A stretch of DNA of 32,653 nt. Source: an uncultured SAR86 cluster bacterium. Its GTDB lineage: Bacteria > Pseudomonadota > Gammaproteobacteria > Magnimaribacterales > D2472. The stretch covers positions 1 to 32,653 of the forward strand of contig CACEHH010000010.1 of NCBI GenBank assembly GCA_902559345.1, read 5' to 3'. Position 1 is the first letter of the stretch; every line of letters begins with the position of its first letter. A program made the translations under genes and the position numbers. Positions 1 through 11,964 of the stretch are shown here, in pieces. The notes beneath the pieces were generated by a model. It ran no database searches and was not told where the DNA came from. It saw only the letters and a list, made by a program, of their open reading frames with translations.

Positions 1-690
1 TTGGATGTTGATTATATGGTTGTGGTTGCGTATGGGAACCTTATTCCTGGTTGGTTGCTTGAACACCCAAAAATAATGGCAATAAATATACATTTTTCTA
101 TATTGCCAAAATATAGAGGGTCGTCTCCAATACAATCAACTCTTTTAAACGGCGATAGACGAACAGGAGTAACCTTTATGAAAATGTCAAAGAGGTTAGA
201 TGAGGGAGATATCATATCAACCTACAATTTAGATATTCTTGCAGATGACAATAAAGTAACTTTAGAAAATAGATTAGCTGATCTTTCTATTGAAAAAATA
301 AATGAAGTATTAGTTAAAACAAATACGAAGGATATAGCTTTTAAAAAACAAAACCATGACATGGCGTCATACTGTGAGAAAATTTTTAAAGAGAACTCAG
401 TAACAAATTTTGATGATAGTTCAATAGATATAATTAATAAGTTTAAGGCATTTTTTGAGTGGCCAGGGATGAGTTTTATATATAATGATACTGTTATTAA
501 AATACATGGAATTCGAATATCTGGAGAAAAAAGTTGTAATTCTCCAGGCACTATAGATAGAATTGATAAGTCAGGAATGTACATCAATACAAGGGATAAT
601 AAGATAGTAATTACTCACTTACAGTTTCCTAATAAAAATAAAATTACTTCATTGGATGTTTTTAACTCTTATTCATCTTTTTTTAAATAA
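1..690 (+). CDS. fmt: methionyl-tRNA formyltransferase, 3' part (N-terminus outside window)
   Basis: The open frame runs from the first base, so the gene starts upstream of the window and the TTG at base 1 is not a start. 229 residues are visible; the family usually has about 310. Fmt formylates the methionine on initiator tRNA using 10-formyl-tetrahydrofolate. The visible part holds the catalytic core: Asn29 and His31 in INIH, followed by SILPKYRGSSPIQ, and Asp67 in LDEGD. The N-to-D spacing of 38 equals that of E. coli N106/D144. After about residue 130 comes the C-terminal tRNA-binding domain (GTIDRIDKSGMYI). In many gammaproteobacteria rsmB lies between fmt and trkA; here trkA starts 57 bases downstream with no rsmB between them. 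Confidence 0.95.
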   Translation: MDVDYMVVVAYGNLIPGWLLEHPKIMAINIHFSILPKYRGSSPIQSTLLNGDRRTGVTFMKMSKRLDEGDIISTYNLDILADDNKVTLENRLADLSIEKINEVLVKTNTKDIAFKKQNHDMASYCEKIFKENSVTNFDDSSIDIINKFKAFFEWPGMSFIYNDTVIKIHGIRISGEKSCNSPGTIDRIDKSGMYINTRDNKIVITHLQFPNKNKITSLDVFNSYSSFFK

Positions 691-747: not shown

Positions 748-2103
748 ATGAAAGTACTAATACTGGGTGCTGGAAGAGTTGGTGGAAGTCTTGCCAGAGC
801 TTTGGTTAATAACAACTATGATGTTTCAATAGTAGATCAAAATAAAAATACCCTTTCTTCTTTGGAAGAAAAGTTAGATATTATGACAGTAGAGGGACAT
901 GCTGCGCATCCTTTATCTATAAAAAAATCTGGCGCAGATGAATCAACTATAGTAATTGCTGTTACTTCTAATGATGAAGTAAATATAATCGCATGCCAAG
1001 TTGCTAAAAGAGAATTTAATGTTAAGAAAACTATCTGCAGATTAAGCGAAGGCTCATATACTGATAATCTTGATATTTTTGGTGAAAATGTAATTGATAT
1101 GGTTATCAGTCCTGAAAATGAAGTGATGAATCACTTAAAAGAATTAATTATCCATCCTGGAACTGAACAAATTGAGAAGTTTGCCGACGGCAATGTAAGT
1201 CTAGTATGCGTTAAAGCTAAAAAGAAAGGGAAGCTTGTTGGGAGAGAGCTTAAAGAATTTAAAGACGACATGCCTGAAACAGATGCTTTTGTTGCATCTA
1301 TTTATAGAGACGGAAAGCCTTTTATACCTTCTGGTGATACCAAGGTTAAGGCAAGAGATGAAATCTACTTTATATCATCTGAGTCTAATGTTGATCAAAT
1401 TGTTAATGAATTTAGAGATAAAGAGGATGATTTTTCAAGAGTAATGATTGTAGGAGGGGGTAAGGTTGGGTTTTCTTTGGCAAAAGAAATTGAAAATGAC
1501 TATAAGATAAAATTGATTGATTCTAATGAAAAAAAATGTAGTGATCTATCAAAGAAACTTGAGAAATCAATTGTTCTTCATGGATCTGCAACAGATGAAG
1601 ATTTATTAAAAAGTGAAGGAATTGAAAATATAGATATTTTTTGCGCCATAACCGATGATGATGAAACAAATCTAATGTCATCTCTCCTCGCCAAAAAAAT
1701 GGGAGCCAAAAAAACGATGATAATATTAAATAACCCATCATATTTAGGTTTAGTGCCAGGATTTATTGATATATATATTGCTCCATACCGACTTACTGTT
1801 TCGTCTGTTCTTCAGGATCTGCGTGAAAGTGATGTTGCTCAAGATGTATTGCTTAAAATGCATACTGGCGCCGAGGCTATCGAAGGCGTTGTTCATGCAA
1901 ATGAGTTTACATCTAATTTATTTGGCAAATCTCTTAAAGAGATTCCATTGCCAGAAGGAGCGTCTATTGGTGCAGTTGTAAGACATGGCGAACTTATAAT
2001 GCCTGATTCTAATGTTGAGCTCTGTCTAAATGACCATCTTATAATTTTTCTTGCAAATAAGGATATGATGTCTGAAGTAGAAGTTCTATTTAAGATAAAT
2101 TAA
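748..2103 (+). CDS. trkA: Trk potassium uptake regulatory subunit TrkA
   Basis: Cytoplasmic NAD-binding ring protein that gates the TrkH potassium channel. The 451 residues contain two RCK units. The first Rossmann motif is GAGRVG at residues 7-12, with the acidic ribose-binding Asp in SIVDQN near residue 30. The second is GGGKVG near residues 236-241, followed by LIDSN. Each is followed by a TrkA-C-like segment (for example NVSLVCVKAKKKGKLVGREL in the first half). The length matches E. coli TrkA (458). The ATG is 57 bases after the fmt stop. The stop codon shares one base with the ATG of trkH (TAATG), which implies translational coupling of the two subunits. Confidence 0.96.
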   Translation: MKVLILGAGRVGGSLARALVNNNYDVSIVDQNKNTLSSLEEKLDIMTVEGHAAHPLSIKKSGADESTIVIAVTSNDEVNIIACQVAKREFNVKKTICRLSEGSYTDNLDIFGENVIDMVISPENEVMNHLKELIIHPGTEQIEKFADGNVSLVCVKAKKKGKLVGRELKEFKDDMPETDAFVASIYRDGKPFIPSGDTKVKARDEIYFISSESNVDQIVNEFRDKEDDFSRVMIVGGGKVGFSLAKEIENDYKIKLIDSNEKKCSDLSKKLEKSIVLHGSATDEDLLKSEGIENIDIFCAITDDDETNLMSSLLAKKMGAKKTMIILNNPSYLGLVPGFIDIYIAPYRLTVSSVLQDLRESDVAQDVLLKMHTGAEAIEGVVHANEFTSNLFGKSLKEIPLPEGASIGAVVRHGELIMPDSNVELCLNDHLIIFLANKDMMSEVEVLFKIN

Positions 2104-3539
2104 TGAATCCTAAGTCAATATTAAATCTCTTTAGTATATTAATATTGTTATTTAGTTTTTCATATATATTCCCAATAATTGTTTCTGTAGCATTTGATGA
2201 TGGTGCTCTTAGCTTATTTACAACAACATTAGGCTTTGTTTCATTTGTAGGGCTTGTTGGCCTTTTTCTTACTAGAAATATTAAAAAAGATCTATCACAA
2301 AAGGATGGCTTTGTTATTATCGTTATGTTTTGGATAGTGCTGTCATTGGCTGGATCTGTTCCATTTTATTTAAGCGGAATGAGTCTCATAGATTCTATAT
2401 TTGAATCAATGTCAGGAATTACAACAACTGGCGCGACGGTGATATCCGGTTTAGATAGTATGCCAGAATCATTATTGTTTTACAGACAGCTGTTACAGTG
2501 GATGGGTGGAATGGGGCTTATTGTTCTTGCTATTGCAGTAATGCCTCTTTTAGGAATAGGTGGTGGTCAAATTTACAAAACAGAAGTGCCTGGAGCAATG
2601 GGCGAACAAAGACTAACACCAAGAATCAAAGAAACTGCTCAAGCTTTGTGGTTGATATATTTTGCGCTAACCCTTATTTGCGCAGTCTTATATTATTTTA
2701 ATGATATGTCAGTCTTTGATGCTATCTCACACTCTATGTCAACAGTCGCAATTGGAGGATTTTCAACTCACGATGAAAGTATTGGTTTTTTTAACAATAT
2801 ATATATAGAGGTTATTTGTATCGTATTTATGTTTTTGTCTGCTTTTAGCTTTGCCTTACATTATTTTGCTATATATAAGAAAAAGCCTCTTAAGTATGCC
2901 TTTGACCCAGAGCTTAAGTTTTTCATGTCGTTTATTCTTCTAATATTCATTGTGGCCTTCCTTGTTAGTATTTTTAGCCAAAGCGATAACACTCCAACTA
3001 CTAGAGAGCTTACATTTCATACTGTTTCAATGGTTACTACAACAGGTTTTACAATTGGAAGTTCCTCAGAATGGCCTTTTTCAATATCATTCCTACTTCT
3101 TATAGGAGCCTTCGTAGGAGCTTGTTCAGGATCAGTTGGTGGAGGAATTAAGTCGTGGAGGGTGATGATTATGTTAAGCCATGCATATAAAAATATAATG
3201 AAAATAATTCACCCAAACTCTGTTACTTCTATAAAGCTTGGTTCTAAAAGCGTTGATGAAGAGGTGGCTACATCGGTATGGGGATTCTTTTCAATTTATG
3301 TAATTTCTTTTGTTATTCTCCTGGTAGGGGTATTGATATCAGGACTAGATTTTGAGTCAGCTTTTTCAGCCGTTGGCGCATGCCTGAATAATCTTGGACC
3401 AGGTCTTGGAGTTGTATCTGAAAATTATGCTGATATAAATTCGTTTTCAAAAGGGATATTAGCTTTTGCTATGCTCCTTGGTCGGTTAGAAATATTTACT
3501 TTATTGGTTATTCTTACGCCAATGTTTTGGGCTAAATAG
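2103..3539 (+). CDS. trkH: Trk potassium transporter membrane subunit TrkH
   Basis: Inner-membrane K+ channel-like subunit of the Trk system, 478 residues (E. coli TrkH 483). All four pore-loop signatures with their filter glycines are present: TTTGATV at residues 107-113, AIGGFST near 216-222, TTTGFTIG at 312-319 and NNLGPGLG near 429-436. Hydrophobic helices fill the rest. It overlaps trkA by one base, so subunit and regulator are probably made together. Its 3' end overlaps by 8 bases, tail to tail, with the acyltransferase gene on the other strand, leaving no room for a separate terminator. Confidence 0.96.
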   Translation: MNPKSILNLFSILILLFSFSYIFPIIVSVAFDDGALSLFTTTLGFVSFVGLVGLFLTRNIKKDLSQKDGFVIIVMFWIVLSLAGSVPFYLSGMSLIDSIFESMSGITTTGATVISGLDSMPESLLFYRQLLQWMGGMGLIVLAIAVMPLLGIGGGQIYKTEVPGAMGEQRLTPRIKETAQALWLIYFALTLICAVLYYFNDMSVFDAISHSMSTVAIGGFSTHDESIGFFNNIYIEVICIVFMFLSAFSFALHYFAIYKKKPLKYAFDPELKFFMSFILLIFIVAFLVSIFSQSDNTPTTRELTFHTVSMVTTTGFTIGSSSEWPFSISFLLLIGAFVGACSGSVGGGIKSWRVMIMLSHAYKNIMKIIHPNSVTSIKLGSKSVDEEVATSVWGFFSIYVISFVILLVGVLISGLDFESAFSAVGACLNNLGPGLGVVSENYADINSFSKGILAFAMLLGRLEIFTLLVILTPMFWAK

Positions 3540-4395
3540 AGGAATAAGGATTTAATTCGCCAGCCCTACTCTTCTTAAATCTCTTATATTCCCAAGAATA
3601 ATCGATGGGTCTTTTGTTAATCATTTTTTCAATATCAGAATTTAATAATAGTTTGTGCTTACTATCATCATAGATATCATTACTACATGATTTTAAAGAA
3701 ATTGATAAAAATCCTTCTTTGTTAGAGTTTAAATAAAAATATAATACTGAGGCATTTGTTTTAGCGGCTAATGATTGAACTAGTGTGGTGCTGTAAGCTT
3801 CTCTATTATAGAACTTAATATATTCTCCATGCCCTCGTTGTGGAACTTGATCTGCTGCAAAACATATAATTTCTTTAGACATTAATGCCTTTAAAATTTT
3901 TCTTACGCCATGTATTGATGTTTCAATGCTTTTTGAACCCCCGGCCTCCCTTTCTCTTTTGACAAATCTGTCTAAAGCATTAATTTTTATCTTTTTATAC
4001 AAACTTACGGTAACAAAATTAGAATTTAACCATCTTAACAACATATCCACGCTTCTGTTGTGAATGGCAACAGCAATTAATCCTTTTCTTTTATTTATAA
4101 GATTTTTTAATAAAAAGTTATTTTCAATTTTAAAAACTTGGCTATTCGATTCATGGCTACTTCTGCCCCAGGTATAAACTGTTTCGTAGCCAGATATAAT
4201 AGATTCTCTTATGCTTAGTTTTGAGAGAAGGTTAATATCTGATGGATTTAGTTCAGGATATGCTATCTTTAAATTAATTTTAGTTATTTTATATGATTTA
4301 AAAATTAAAAATAATTTTGAAAAGATATAAATATCAACCAAATATATAAAAAAAGTCTTGGGAAAAAGAGAAATTATGTAAAATAGTGCTTTCAT
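3532..4395 (-). CDS. LpxL/HtrB-family lipid A acyltransferase
   Basis: Predicted late acyltransferase that would add a secondary acyl chain to lipid A at the inner membrane. The 287 residues start with a hydrophobic N-terminal segment (about 4-31) typical of LpxL/LpxM. The catalytic HX4(D/E) motif is His112-Asp117 (HNRSVD), followed by basic residues (VKREREAGG) and AADQVPQRG. The end reads YSWEYKRFK, like the family's conserved ...W.YKRFK tail. Which acyl position it serves (LpxL, LpxM or LpxP type) cannot be read from sequence. In P. aeruginosa an htrB homologue (PA0011, from memory) sits in the same interval between trkA and the glycyl-tRNA synthetase genes, so this is probably the positional orthologue. 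Confidence 0.85.
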   Translation of the reverse strand: MKALFYIISLFPKTFFIYLVDIYIFSKLFLIFKSYKITKINLKIAYPELNPSDINLLSKLSIRESIISGYETVYTWGRSSHESNSQVFKIENNFLLKNLINKRKGLIAVAIHNRSVDMLLRWLNSNFVTVSLYKKIKINALDRFVKREREAGGSKSIETSIHGVRKILKALMSKEIICFAADQVPQRGHGEYIKFYNREAYSTTLVQSLAAKTNASVLYFYLNSNKEGFLSISLKSCSNDIYDDSKHKLLLNSDIEKMINKRPIDYSWEYKRFKKSRAGELNPYSSI

Positions 4396-4517
4396 ACTAA
4401 GCTAAATGATAATGCATGATATATAATCATAAATATCAATAATATACAAAAAAATTTAAAAATAATTTGATATATAAAATTAAGAGACAAATGTCGAATA
4501 ATATTAGGAGAATTTAA
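4396..4517. other. divergent intergenic region between acyltransferase and glyRS
   Basis: A 122-base, very AT-rich gap that must hold the promoters for the leftward acyltransferase gene and the rightward glyRS-plsC pair. It contains a small inverted repeat ATGAT-atata-ATCAT at 4416-4430, which also includes a TATAAT on the + strand (4422-4427). No convincing -35 hexamer is visible. The only clear translation signal is AGGAG at 4506-4510, seven bases before the glyRS TTG start. No tRNA or structured RNA was seen. Confidence 0.5.
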
Positions 4518-5864
4518 TTGCCTGCAAAAAATATGGATGAATTGGTTGCCTTATGTAAAAGAAGGGGTTTTATTTTTCAATCTGGGGATATTTATGGAGG
4601 CTTACAAGGCGTATATGATTTTGGTCCACTAGGGGTAGAGTTAAAAAATAATATTAAACAGTCATGGTGGGAGTCAATGGTCTATGAGAATGAAAATATT
4701 GAAGGATTAGACTCTTCAATACTTACAAACCCATTAATTTTAAAGTATTCAGGCCATGAAGACACATTCTCAGACCCTATGGTTGATTGCAAATCTTGTC
4801 AGAAAAGGTTTAGAGCAGACCAAGTGCCACCTGAATGTAAAGAAGAGGATCTTACTGAGCCTAGACAATTTAACCTAATGTTTAAAACAAATGTGGGCCC
4901 AATAGACGATGGTGATAACTTTGCATATTTAAGGCCAGAAACAGCACAACAAATTTTTACTAATTTTAAAAACATAATAGATTCTACATCCAAAACACTG
5001 CCATTTGGTATAGCTCAAACTGGCAAAGCTTTTAGGAATGAAATAACGCCAAGAAATTTTATTTTCAGAGTGCGTGAGTTTGAACAAATGGAGCTAGAAT
5101 ATTTTGTTACCCCAGGAGATGATGAAGAAGCGCATTCTTCATGGGTACAAAAAAGGCTGGATTGGTGGGTAAATCAAGGTGTACCCATGAAAAGCATTCA
5201 ATTATATGATGTACCCAAGGATGAGCTTGCTCATTATTCTAAAAAAACGATTGATATAATGTACGAATTTCCACATGGTGTTGAAGAGTTGGAAGGTATA
5301 GCAAACAGAACTGATTTTGATCTTGGATCACATTCAAAAAAACAATCAGAGTTAAATATAAATGCTTCTGTAACAAAAAATAAAGATTCAAATAGTAAAC
5401 TAGCAATTAAAGATGAAAATGGAGGTTGGGTTGTTCCATTTGTTATTGAGCCATCCGCTGGAGTTGAAAGGGGTTTTTTAGCAATTTTAAATGAATCATT
5501 CACTGTAGAAAAACTTTCAGATGGCAAAGAAAGAATAGTCCTTAAATTAAAACCACATCTTGCACCTATCAAAATAGCTGTTATTCCTTTGAAGAAAAAT
5601 AATGCCGAAATGGTAGCTTATGCTAAGAAAATTATAAAAAAATTACAAGCTTTAAAAATAGGCAGAGTGGTACTTGAAAATACAGGAAATATAGGAAAAA
5701 GCTATAGAAAGCATGACGAAATTGGCACACCAGTATGCATAACGGTTGACTTTGAAAGCCTGGATGACAAAAGCGTTACCTTAAGAGATAGAGACTCTAT
5801 GGAGCAATCAAGAGTAGATTCTAATAGTCTTAATGAAATTGTAACTAAAAAGATAAAGCTTTAA
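4518..5864 (+). CDS. glycyl-tRNA synthetase, single-chain (homodimeric) type
   Basis: Charges tRNA-Gly with glycine; class II synthetase. This is the single-chain alpha2 type, as in Gram-positive bacteria, archaea and eukaryotes, not the GlyQ/GlyS alpha2beta2 enzyme usual in gammaproteobacteria. Visible signatures are [16 protein letters not shown] near the N-terminus, CKSC at 91-94, motif 2 with [19 protein letters not shown] from 172, and motif 3 GVERGF at 315-320. The C-terminal anticodon-binding domain begins near [10 protein letters not shown] (about 352). At 448 residues it is at the short end of the family. The TTG start at 4518 is supported by AGGAG seven bases upstream and by the family-like N-terminus. 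plsC starts one base after its stop, so the two are probably co-transcribed. The locus is where P. aeruginosa has glyQ-glyS, suggesting displacement in place. Confidence 0.95.
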
Positions 5865-5865
5865 A

Positions 5866-9567
<3,702 letters not shown>

Positions 9568-9568
9568 T

Positions 9569-10672
9569 TTATACTAACAAGGGCATAACGACATATTTAA
9601 GGTTATCAAAACCTGGGTCTGTTATTAAACAGCTTTTGTCAGAACCGAAGAAATTAATTTGAACATTTTCTGAATCGAGTGTGGAGAGTATCTCCTGAAG
9701 ATAATTAACATTAAATGCTATATCTACCTGCTCACCTTTATATTCGCATTCTATAATTTCTTCCCCTTGTTCTTTTTCTGGGTTGTTAGCAGAAATATTT
9801 ACTGAGTCTTCTCCTGTTAATATTCTTACGCCTTTATATTTCTCACCTGACAAAACACTAACCCTACTAAGACTATCTGATAAAAGTTTTCTATTAATAT
9901 TTAAGAGGGTGCTGTCACCCGAGGGAATAACTTGTTCGTAGTCTGGAAATTTTCCTTCAATCAGCTTACTAATAAAAGTTGTTCCTAAAATATAAACAGC
10001 TATTGATGTTGTACCAAGTTTAATTACAACATTTTCTTTTTCATCTCCAACAAGCTTTCCAATTTCGTTTATTGATTTTCTTGGAACTATGCCGCTTATA
10101 TTTTCAGATGATGCTTCGTTTAAAGATGAGATAGCCAAAGCCAGCCTATGAGCATCGGTCGCAACACTTGTAATATTTTTATCGTCTATAAGCAAATATA
10201 GGCCATTAAGATAATGCCTCCAGTCTTGGTTTCCCATAGCAAATGTAGTTTTTTCTATAATGGTTTTAAGATTTTGTGCTGAGATATTTATTTGTGCTTG
10301 GGTCTCTTCATGCTCAAACACTGGGAAATCTTCACTTGGTAAGGTTGATAGGTTGTATTTTCCTGCTCCTGACTCAATTTTTAGGTTGTCTCCATCAAGA
10401 AAAAAGTGTATTTCAGCCATATCTGGCAATAATCTACATAAGTCATTAAGCTTTCTTGCAGGAGCTGTTGTTTTACCACCGCTTTTAAAGTTTGATATTG
10501 TTGAGGTTGTAGAGATTTCGCTTTCTAGGTCTGTGGCGGTTAGTTTTAAAGAAGATTCGTCAACCTCAAACAAAACATTTGAAATTATTGGAAGTGTTTG
10601 TCTTTTTTCAACAACCCCAAGTGTAAGGCTTAAAGATTTAACAATTTCTTCTTTTGTGATGTAAAAATCCAT
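9569..10672 (-). CDS. dnaN: DNA polymerase III sliding clamp (beta subunit)
   Basis: Forms the ring that tethers DNA polymerase III to DNA. The 367 residues match the family length (E. coli 366). The N-terminus has the EIVKSLSLTLGVVEKR.TLPIISNVL pattern, and three clamp repeats of about 120 residues follow. The C-terminus ends YVVMPLLV, comparable to E. coli YVVMPMRL. Its ATG shares one base with the dnaA stop (TAATG on the coding strand), and recF begins one base after its own stop, so dnaA-dnaN-recF are tightly coupled. Confidence 0.97.
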   Translation of the reverse strand: MDFYITKEEIVKSLSLTLGVVEKRQTLPIISNVLFEVDESSLKLTATDLESEISTTSTISNFKSGGKTTAPARKLNDLCRLLPDMAEIHFFLDGDNLKIESGAGKYNLSTLPSEDFPVFEHEETQAQINISAQNLKTIIEKTTFAMGNQDWRHYLNGLYLLIDDKNITSVATDAHRLALAISSLNEASSENISGIVPRKSINEIGKLVGDEKENVVIKLGTTSIAVYILGTTFISKLIEGKFPDYEQVIPSGDSTLLNINRKLLSDSLSRVSVLSGEKYKGVRILTGEDSVNISANNPEKEQGEEIIECEYKGEQVDIAFNVNYLQEILSTLDSENVQINFFGSDKSCLITDPGFDNLKYVVMPLLV

Positions 10673-11964
10673 TAATTTGTTAGGGCTCTGTTTAAGTTTC
10701 TATAATCTTCTTCGTGTGAGGGGTTTTCCTGTCTAAGCTCTGCAATTTTTTTACATGCATGAAGGACTGTTGTGTGGTCTCTTCCATTAAAAGCCTCACC
10801 TATTTCTGGTAGGCTGTGGTTTGTAAGCTCTTTGGTTAGAGCCATGGCCATTTGTCTGGGCCTTGTAATTGATCTGCTTCTTCTTTTTGATAAAAGATCT
10901 GATAGTTTTATATTGTAGTATTCTGCTGTAGTTTTTTGTATATTTTCAATGCTTACCATTTTTGCTGATATTACAAAAAGGTCTTTAAGAGCATCTTTAA
11001 CCAATGCCAAATCAATCTCTTGATTTGTAAATCTTGCATTTGCAACAACCCTTTTCAAAGCGCCCTCTAACTCCCTAATGTTTGATCTTATTCTTTGCGC
11101 AATATAGATTGCACAATCGTTAGGAAGGACGACCCTCATCGAAGATGCTTTCTTTAGAAGAACAGCTGCTCTTGTTTCTAGTTCTGGTGGGTCAATCACA
11201 ACCGGCAACCCCCAACCAAGCCTGGATTTTAACCTCTCCTCTAAACCCTCGATTTCTTTTGGGTATTTATCACACGTGAGAATCATCTGATTATTTCTGT
11301 CTAATAATGCATTAAATGTATGGAAAAACTCTTCTTGGGACTGCTCTTTTCCAGCAAAAAATTGAATATCGTCTATCAACAACGCATCTGCGTTTCTGTA
11401 AAATGACTTGAACTCATTCATTGCACCAAGTTGTAGAGCTTTTACCATGTCAGAAACAAACTTCTCTGAGTGGACGTATACTATTCTTTTGTTTGGTTTG
11501 TTATTGAGAATTTCATTTCCAACCGCATGCATTAAGTGAGTTTTACCCAAACCAACCCCGCCATATATAAACAGAGGGTTATAGTCTCCCTTAGGATTTG
11601 CTGCAACCTGCTTTGCAGCTGCCAGGGCTAAGTGGTTGGACTTTCCCTCAACAAAGTTTTTAAAAGTATATCCCTCAACAAGTTTAATTGATGGTTTTTT
11701 GTTTTTCTTATATTTATCAACAAATGTTTCTTTTGTGTGTGTTTTAAAAACTAGGCTTATATCGATTTTTGATTGTTTTTGAACAATATCTTGAATCTCT
11801 TTAGAAAAATTTTTTTCTATGTAGTCTAAAATAAATTCATTGGGCGCAACCAACTCAAGTGTATTATTGTCAATAGTAGCTTTTAAAGGCCTTATCCAGG
11901 TATTAAAATCCTCTTGTGTTAAACTGTTTTCGAGTTTTTGCGAGCACTTATTCCAAAGTTCCAA
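10672..11964 (-). CDS. dnaA: chromosomal replication initiator DnaA
   Basis: AAA+ initiator that binds DnaA boxes and opens oriC. The 430 residues begin with domain I ([25 protein letters not shown]), then a short domain II linker. Walker A is GGVGLGKT at 135-142 and Walker B LLIDDIQF at 195-202. The C-terminal helix-turn-helix signature [14 protein letters not shown] begins at 394. E. coli DnaA has 467 residues; most of the difference is in the linker. The start is TTG at 11964, chosen because GGAGA lies six bases upstream on the coding strand (11971-11975 on +) and the N-terminus aligns with the family. It heads the leftward dnaA-dnaN-recF-gyrB group. Confidence 0.97.

Follow-up and report, generated by a model that had tools for sequence, protein, structure and literature searches.

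A single-chain glycyl-tRNA synthetase gene in the place of glyQ-glyS in the SAR86 order

The window, a 32,653-nucleotide stretch of DNA from a SAR86-clade draft genome (922 kb, 34 contigs, 72% complete), contains a gene that very probably encodes the sole glycyl-tRNA synthetase (GlyRS) of this bacterium, a class II homodimer of the Thermus (alpha2) kind. With the same high confidence we propose that this gene replaced the two-chain glyQ-glyS pair before the order diversified and was then inherited with its locus, some of the neighbours being lost later.

The glyRS gene occupies positions 4518–5864 on the plus strand. Its reading frame is complete (448 aa, TTG start, no internal stops in the translation), and a likely ribosome-binding site, AGGAG, is located at 4506–4510 on the same strand, 7 nt upstream of the start. 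The N-terminus obtained with the TTG start, M-P-A, agrees with that of an Elusimicrobiota relative (L038), which begins with MPAT. The protein scored above the curated cut-offs of two glycine–tRNA ligase models, namely NCBIfam TIGR00389 glyS_dimeric (465.4 bits, cut-off 243.3) and PRK04173 (573.3 bits, cut-off 312). Against a third, the 539-position glycine–tRNA ligase equivalog PRK14894, it reached 630 bits, which is under the 1050-bit cut-off. The nearest solved structures were those from Thermus, 1ati (E 3.9e-174) and 1b76 (E 1.5e-169). A 25-residue stretch and the stretch EPSAGVERG aligned with 1ati, and the alignment extends to 1ati residue 499; we take the two stretches to be class II motifs 2 and 3, and the C-terminal part of the alignment to be the anticodon-binding domain. 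Among the matches listed, the nearest named relatives include eight SAR86-labelled genomes (67–74% identity). These results confirmed the gene as a complete single-chain GlyRS, nearest to the Thermus enzyme in the structure databases, and the first-pass annotation had named this very ORF as such. By analogy with the Thermus enzyme, the protein is expected to form a homodimer and to carry out both glycine activation and the charging of tRNA-Gly unaided.

The neighbouring genes were assigned by profile matches. Upstream are the C-terminal part of fmt, cut at the window edge (1–690, plus strand), trkA (748–2103, plus), trkH (2103–3539, plus) and an LpxL/HtrB-type acyltransferase gene (3532–4395, minus). 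According to the ORF list and the sequence, they are followed by an AT-rich gap of 122 bp (4396–4517), which is too small for a sizeable relic of glyQ or glyS. Downstream is plsC (5866–6570, plus), whose product belongs to the 1-acylglycerol-3-phosphate acyltransferase family with a TIGR00530 match below the cut-off; its first possible start lies 1 nt past the glyRS stop. Then come gyrB (6567–8528, minus), convergent with plsC with a 4-nt overlap and used below as the landmark of the locus, and recF, dnaN and dnaA (8491–11,964, minus). The flanks are those given by the first-pass annotation, with trkH, absent from its gene list, in addition. The GyrB of the window itself is 653 aa long and, as a gap between the matches indicates, has no counterpart to some 155 internal residues of the GyrB of the SAR86 genome G003. 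The best GyrB frames in 28 other genomes of the class measure 800–938 aa, and this comparison suggests the loss of an insert within SAR86.

Profile searches of the contigs of the draft genome revealed no match to GlyQ (PF02091) or to GlyS (PF02092). One single-chain GlyRS was found, and two further TIGR00389-type matches on contig 19 (E about 1e-4) were below the cut-off. Since the draft is only 72% complete, relatives in the SAR86 order were also searched, namely 199 genomes drawn evenly out of a larger group. TIGR00389 matched in 181 of them at E ≤ 1e-20 and over the cut-off in 175. The single chain was present in all 40 high-quality genomes and in all 22 genera; none of the 18 genomes lacking a match at 1e-20 is of high quality. 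GlyQ was over the cut-off in none of the 199 genomes, and the two weak PF02091 matches (E 6e-4 and 1e-3) both lie in frames containing stops. This order-wide search covered GlyQ, and the absence of GlyS rests on the PF02092 search of the draft itself and on tblastn in the single-contig SAR86 genome G003 (60 stretches), where one glyRS and neither glyQ nor glyS was found (best glyS match E 0.006). The glyQ and glyS queries, taken from the two-chain locus L168, recovered both genes in 40 of 40 two-chain loci, a set in which L168 is counted and to which one genome contributes overlapping loci. A glyQ-glyS pair elsewhere in the genome, for which the first-pass annotation had recommended a search, was thus found neither in the draft nor in G003. 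As the single chain occurs across the sampled order, it was most likely acquired before the SAR86 radiation. The displacement that the first-pass annotation had implied for this genome is upheld, but it is a trait of the order and not peculiar to the genome.

The gene order was compared with that of two-chain genomes; what prompted this was the Pseudomonas aeruginosa order, in which glyS-glyQ occupies this interval. The two-chain order was read from 20 stretches at loci from the GlyQ search, a non-random set in which glyQ is sometimes near a contig start. In all 20, glyQ adjoins glyS; plsC is present in 17, gmhB in 15, both in 14, gyrB in 8 and trkH in 2. The whole run glyQ-glyS-gmhB-plsC with gyrB beyond plsC was found in five stretches (L167, L168, L174, L177 and L185). 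In the reference locus L168, glyQ, glyS and gmhB are over their NCBIfam cut-offs and the plsC-type gene is under that of TIGR00530. Among 17 stretches of the SAR86 type (MED-G80 included), gyrB lies downstream of glyRS in every one, plsC occurs in 11, gmhB in 6 and neither in 4 (L026, L047, L202 and L204). SAR86 families thus have, beside gyrB, the variants glyRS-gmhB-plsC, glyRS-plsC and glyRS alone. In L008, L201 and L205, placed with family f2, glyRS-gmhB-plsC is the two-chain order with glyRS substituting for glyQ-glyS. Moreover, trkH adjoins or is near glyRS in 29 of the 30 best-scoring loci of the order, the remaining one lying at a contig edge and having plsC.

The shared neighbours and the variants of the run are what replacement in place predicts, with plsC as an old neighbour. 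A new gene stands between the same neighbours and the old enzyme is gone from the host clade, so the displacement of glyQ-glyS by glyRS at an unchanged position among the genes, as the first-pass annotation had suggested, is well supported. Its further suggestion of a later coupling to plsC has to be reversed. The pair glyQ-glyS already precedes gmhB and plsC in 14 of the 20 two-chain stretches and f2 keeps glyRS-gmhB-plsC; the contact between glyRS and plsC in the window arises from loss of gmhB from the old run, not from later joining. A related arrangement was observed in L009 (MED-G80, labelled Gammaproteobacteria), where glyRS-plsC lies beside gyrB and the GlyRS is of the SAR86 type. Its GyrB groups weakly with other gammaproteobacteria, and its far flank has a SpoU-type methylase gene and a short glutamine-synthetase-like gene in place of trkH-trkA.

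The history that would best account for these data is as follows. Before the order diversified, a SAR86 ancestor would have carried the usual glyQ-glyS-gmhB-plsC run beside gyrB, and a single-chain glyRS would have been taken in at the place of glyQ-glyS, presumably in one event for all SAR86. If the incoming enzyme could charge the resident tRNA-Gly with U73, base 73 being left unaltered, glyQ-glyS would have become dispensable and been lost. From then on glyRS would have been inherited together with the locus, and later loss of gmhB, plsC or both may have produced the present variants, including that of the window's family, in which gmhB is absent and glyRS abuts plsC.

For phylogenetic analysis, relatives were drawn with 8-residue patterns taken from the window GlyRS (the best 80 of at least 594), a procedure that did not yield Thermus and its kin; one Thermus row was added separately. 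Trees of 108, 64 and 56 rows were built. The SAR86 GlyRS fell inside a mainly proteobacterial clade (support 100), which also has two Elusimicrobiota rows, one row labelled Verrucomicrobiota and the added Thermus; rows from Chloroflexota, Actinomycetota, Bacillota, Omnitrophota and other Verrucomicrobiota fell apart from it. Within this clade, SAR86, eight alphaproteobacterial rows (four of them labelled Pelagibacteraceae) and the family f145, which belongs to another order and has genomes of 1.0–1.1 Mb, form one group (96/98; 98/97 with fewer rows). In the best trees the SAR86 rows are not monophyletic, alphaproteobacterial and f145 rows being placed among them, and copies may therefore have been exchanged after the displacement. 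Constraining all 18 SAR86 rows to a single clade lowers the likelihood by 38 lnL units, which is borderline (p-AU 0.052). The phylogeny that the first-pass annotation had recommended for finding the donor lineage thus places the gene in a mainly proteobacterial clade, but it names no donor; the nearest rows are those of Alphaproteobacteria and f145, mixed with SAR86.

The position of f145 allows two other accounts of the displacement. It is conceivable, though we would not favour it, that an ancestor shared by SAR86 and f145 underwent a single displacement, that both kept glyRS-gmhB and that gyrB was later separated from the locus in f145. Indeed, the f145 loci L192, L197 and L200 and the related named locus L010 have glyRS-gmhB, L197 also having plsC, and one clade of SAR86 and f145 is rejected neither for GlyRS (p-AU 0.212) nor for GyrB (p-AU 0.188). 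However, the best GlyRS tree nests f145 in SAR86 at two places (forks 95/92 and 84/81), and f145 is outside the SAR86 clades of GmhB and GyrB. In GyrB, 14 SAR86 rows without MED-G80 form one clade (100/98), and the best tree places f145 outside SAR86 and most other gammaproteobacteria, though with weak support (93/69).

The other account, to which we give similarly tentative credence, assumes two or more displacements in the same place, with f145 independently exchanging its glyQ-glyS for a SAR86-like glyRS that arrived just ahead of the resident gmhB. In the GmhB tree, f145 forms with L010 a clade of its own (100/97), separate from the SAR86 clade (100/99), and yet its GlyRS is among those of SAR86. 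Its neighbours, glnA by Pfam and NtrB/NtrC-like genes by eye, are unlike those of SAR86 and recall the two-chain genome L168, with glnA about 5 kb from glyQ. Against this, the support for the nesting is uneven, one tree uniting all f145 rows and MED-G80 in a weak fork (97/62), and the topology tests for GlyRS and GyrB do not reject a single shared event. It is possible, at about the same level of doubt, that both things happened, namely that glyRS took over the position of glyQ-glyS ahead of gmhB on two or more occasions in small-genome gammaproteobacteria, in SAR86 and in f145, and that a SAR86-like glyRS passed between SAR86 and Alphaproteobacteria labelled Pelagibacteraceae. If so, several streamlined lineages would share one travelling GlyRS gene. 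In the three f145 loci and L010, glyRS-gmhB is divergent from glnA and the NtrB/NtrC-like genes, and the glnA of L168 hints at an older common neighbourhood with these loci.

In a census of 369 genomes of the class, GlyQ was found in 326, the single chain in 18, both in none and neither in 25; 12 of the last are of high quality (313 less 286 less 15), and the census of GlyRS types is incomplete because these 25 genomes match neither model. Four of the 18 single-chain genomes belong to the SAR86 order. Vertical inheritance throughout the host clade's relatives, which the first-pass annotation had set against displacement, does not agree with the rarity of the single chain outside the order (14 of 365 class genomes) and in the phylum (6 of 398 genomes, the draft itself counted). 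This rarity also bears on the idea that Gammaproteobacteria ancestrally had both enzymes and that lineages lost one or the other, which we consider improbable. The idea would fit the scatter of the single chain over the families f20, f34, f108, f133, f138 and f145, of which f108 and f138 contain both GlyQ genomes and single-chain genomes, as well as the 25 genomes matching neither model. However, GlyQ is absent from all 18 single-chain genomes of the class and from 44 of the 46 genomes reached through named single-chain loci, the two exceptions being Elusimicrobiota. In addition, no match to gmhB, plsC, gyrB or trkH was found in the stretches examined around single-chain gammaproteobacterial glyRS genes beyond SAR86, f145, L010 and MED-G80, some of these stretches being short; among 14 single-chain gammaproteobacterial stretches from outside the order (11–19 kb), f145 included, gyrB is in none and gmhB is beside glyRS in three, all from f145. 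An artefact (contamination, a chimeric contig, or glyQ-glyS missed through incompleteness) deserves almost no credence, even for a 72%-complete draft in 34 contigs, because the gene order is seen again in assemblies made independently, in genomes from single cells and in single-contig genomes, and every high-quality genome sampled from the order has the single chain.

Two general explanations were considered and rejected. All 14 single-chain genomes of the class outside SAR86 measure 2.0 Mb or less; genome reduction as a general driver was rejected, since sizes of 2.8–6.0 Mb occur as well among single-chain genomes that have no GlyQ match (G568, G572, G576, G579, G587, G588, G589, G593, G596 and G607). 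The single-chain genomes G735 and G750 measure 3.5 and 3.9 Mb. As for carriage by phages, a scan of viral contigs, which demands exact 8-residue matches, gave two relatives of the window GlyRS with 43–45% identity, and a viral vehicle is not indicated.

A different arrangement was observed in Elusimicrobiota. In L038 (5936–8001; also L319), recO lies directly upstream of glyRS and divergent from it, and the GlyRS belongs to the same mainly proteobacterial clade as that of SAR86. Behind recO are a truncated GlyQ (164 aa; Pfam match to positions 69–188 of 278) and a truncated GlyS (267 aa; match to 120–319 of 536). In the genome of a relative (L035/L319), a GlyQ match of full length adjoins a glyS that is truncated where the locus ends, and a RecO-like frame was recognized by eye; this pair is apparently on a different contig from the glyRS of that genome. 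L038 looks like arrival beside an old operon followed by decay, possibly a frozen intermediate, and contamination of the Elusimicrobiota drafts is also possible.

The discriminator base of tRNA-Gly was considered as well. In a single-contig SAR86 genome, the tRNA-Gly genes with GCC and UCC anticodons both have U73, G1-C72, C2-G71 and G3-C70. A pattern for tRNA-Gly UCC matched in 18 of 26 genomes, the draft being among the eight without a match, and U73 was present in all 18 genes; of the genomes that gave them, 14 are single-chain, including 5 in the SAR86 order, and 4 are two-chain. Altogether, U73 was found in 20 of the 20 tRNA-Gly genes read. According to an excerpt of PMC3990555, alpha2 GlyRS usually pairs with A73 and alpha2beta2 GlyRS with U73, and bacteria have U73; the alpha2 enzyme of Thermus works with U73 and in vitro accepts tRNA-Gly with either U73 or A73. 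The retention of U73 suggests what made the swap easy.

The enzyme, and the mixture of GlyRS types in Gammaproteobacteria, are already known. Members with either form occur in this class among other groups, and the pattern was ascribed to transfer (excerpt of PMC4427996). The two types have separate origins and recognize glycine differently (excerpt of PMC4938167), and tRNA synthetases are highly prone to transfer (excerpt of PMC3937112). Four family-level SAR86 lineages are named in the portion of PMC11582366, on a SAR86 isolate, that was consulted, in keeping with our f1–f4, and the main text of that paper has no word starting with tRNA, glycyl or glyQ. No report of a SAR86-wide GlyRS swap in place was found in the open-licence PMC literature, as judged by titles or the starts of abstracts. 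The displacement is ancient and order-wide and adds one more case to a class of events already known; it is a good finding for specialists, and its mechanism is not surprising. Its value lies in an essential enzyme having been exchanged for one of separate origin in the same genomic place throughout an order, with graded states of the neighbourhood from glyRS-gmhB-plsC through glyRS-plsC to glyRS alone. The single-chain glyRS can serve as a fixed character for SAR86 and might help to trace gene flow between this group and Pelagibacteraceae.

Three known systems are comparable. The class-level mixture of GlyRS types is the closest in the literature, and the available part of PMC4427996 makes no mention of SAR86, the locus or in-place replacement. 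The heterotetrameric alpha2beta2 GlyRS (GlyQ/GlyS) carries out the same reaction and has the same place beside gmhB-plsC in relatives, but the window genome does not belong to this type, PF02091 and PF02092 being absent there and PF02091 over its cut-off in none of the 199 genomes of the order. The homodimeric alpha2 GlyRS of Thermus thermophilus (1ati, 1b76) is of the same family as the window protein: joined pieces of 1ati show 59–66% identity to the 29 best-scoring rows of the window GlyRS clade, and the Thermus chain has roughly 40–50 residues after residue 111 that are absent from the window GlyRS. The Thermus enzyme, with which the SAR86 single chain groups here, is likewise paired with U73 tRNA-Gly (excerpt of PMC3990555). 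The window gene differs from it in that its host is a gammaproteobacterium and it occupies the place of its relatives' glyQ-glyS.
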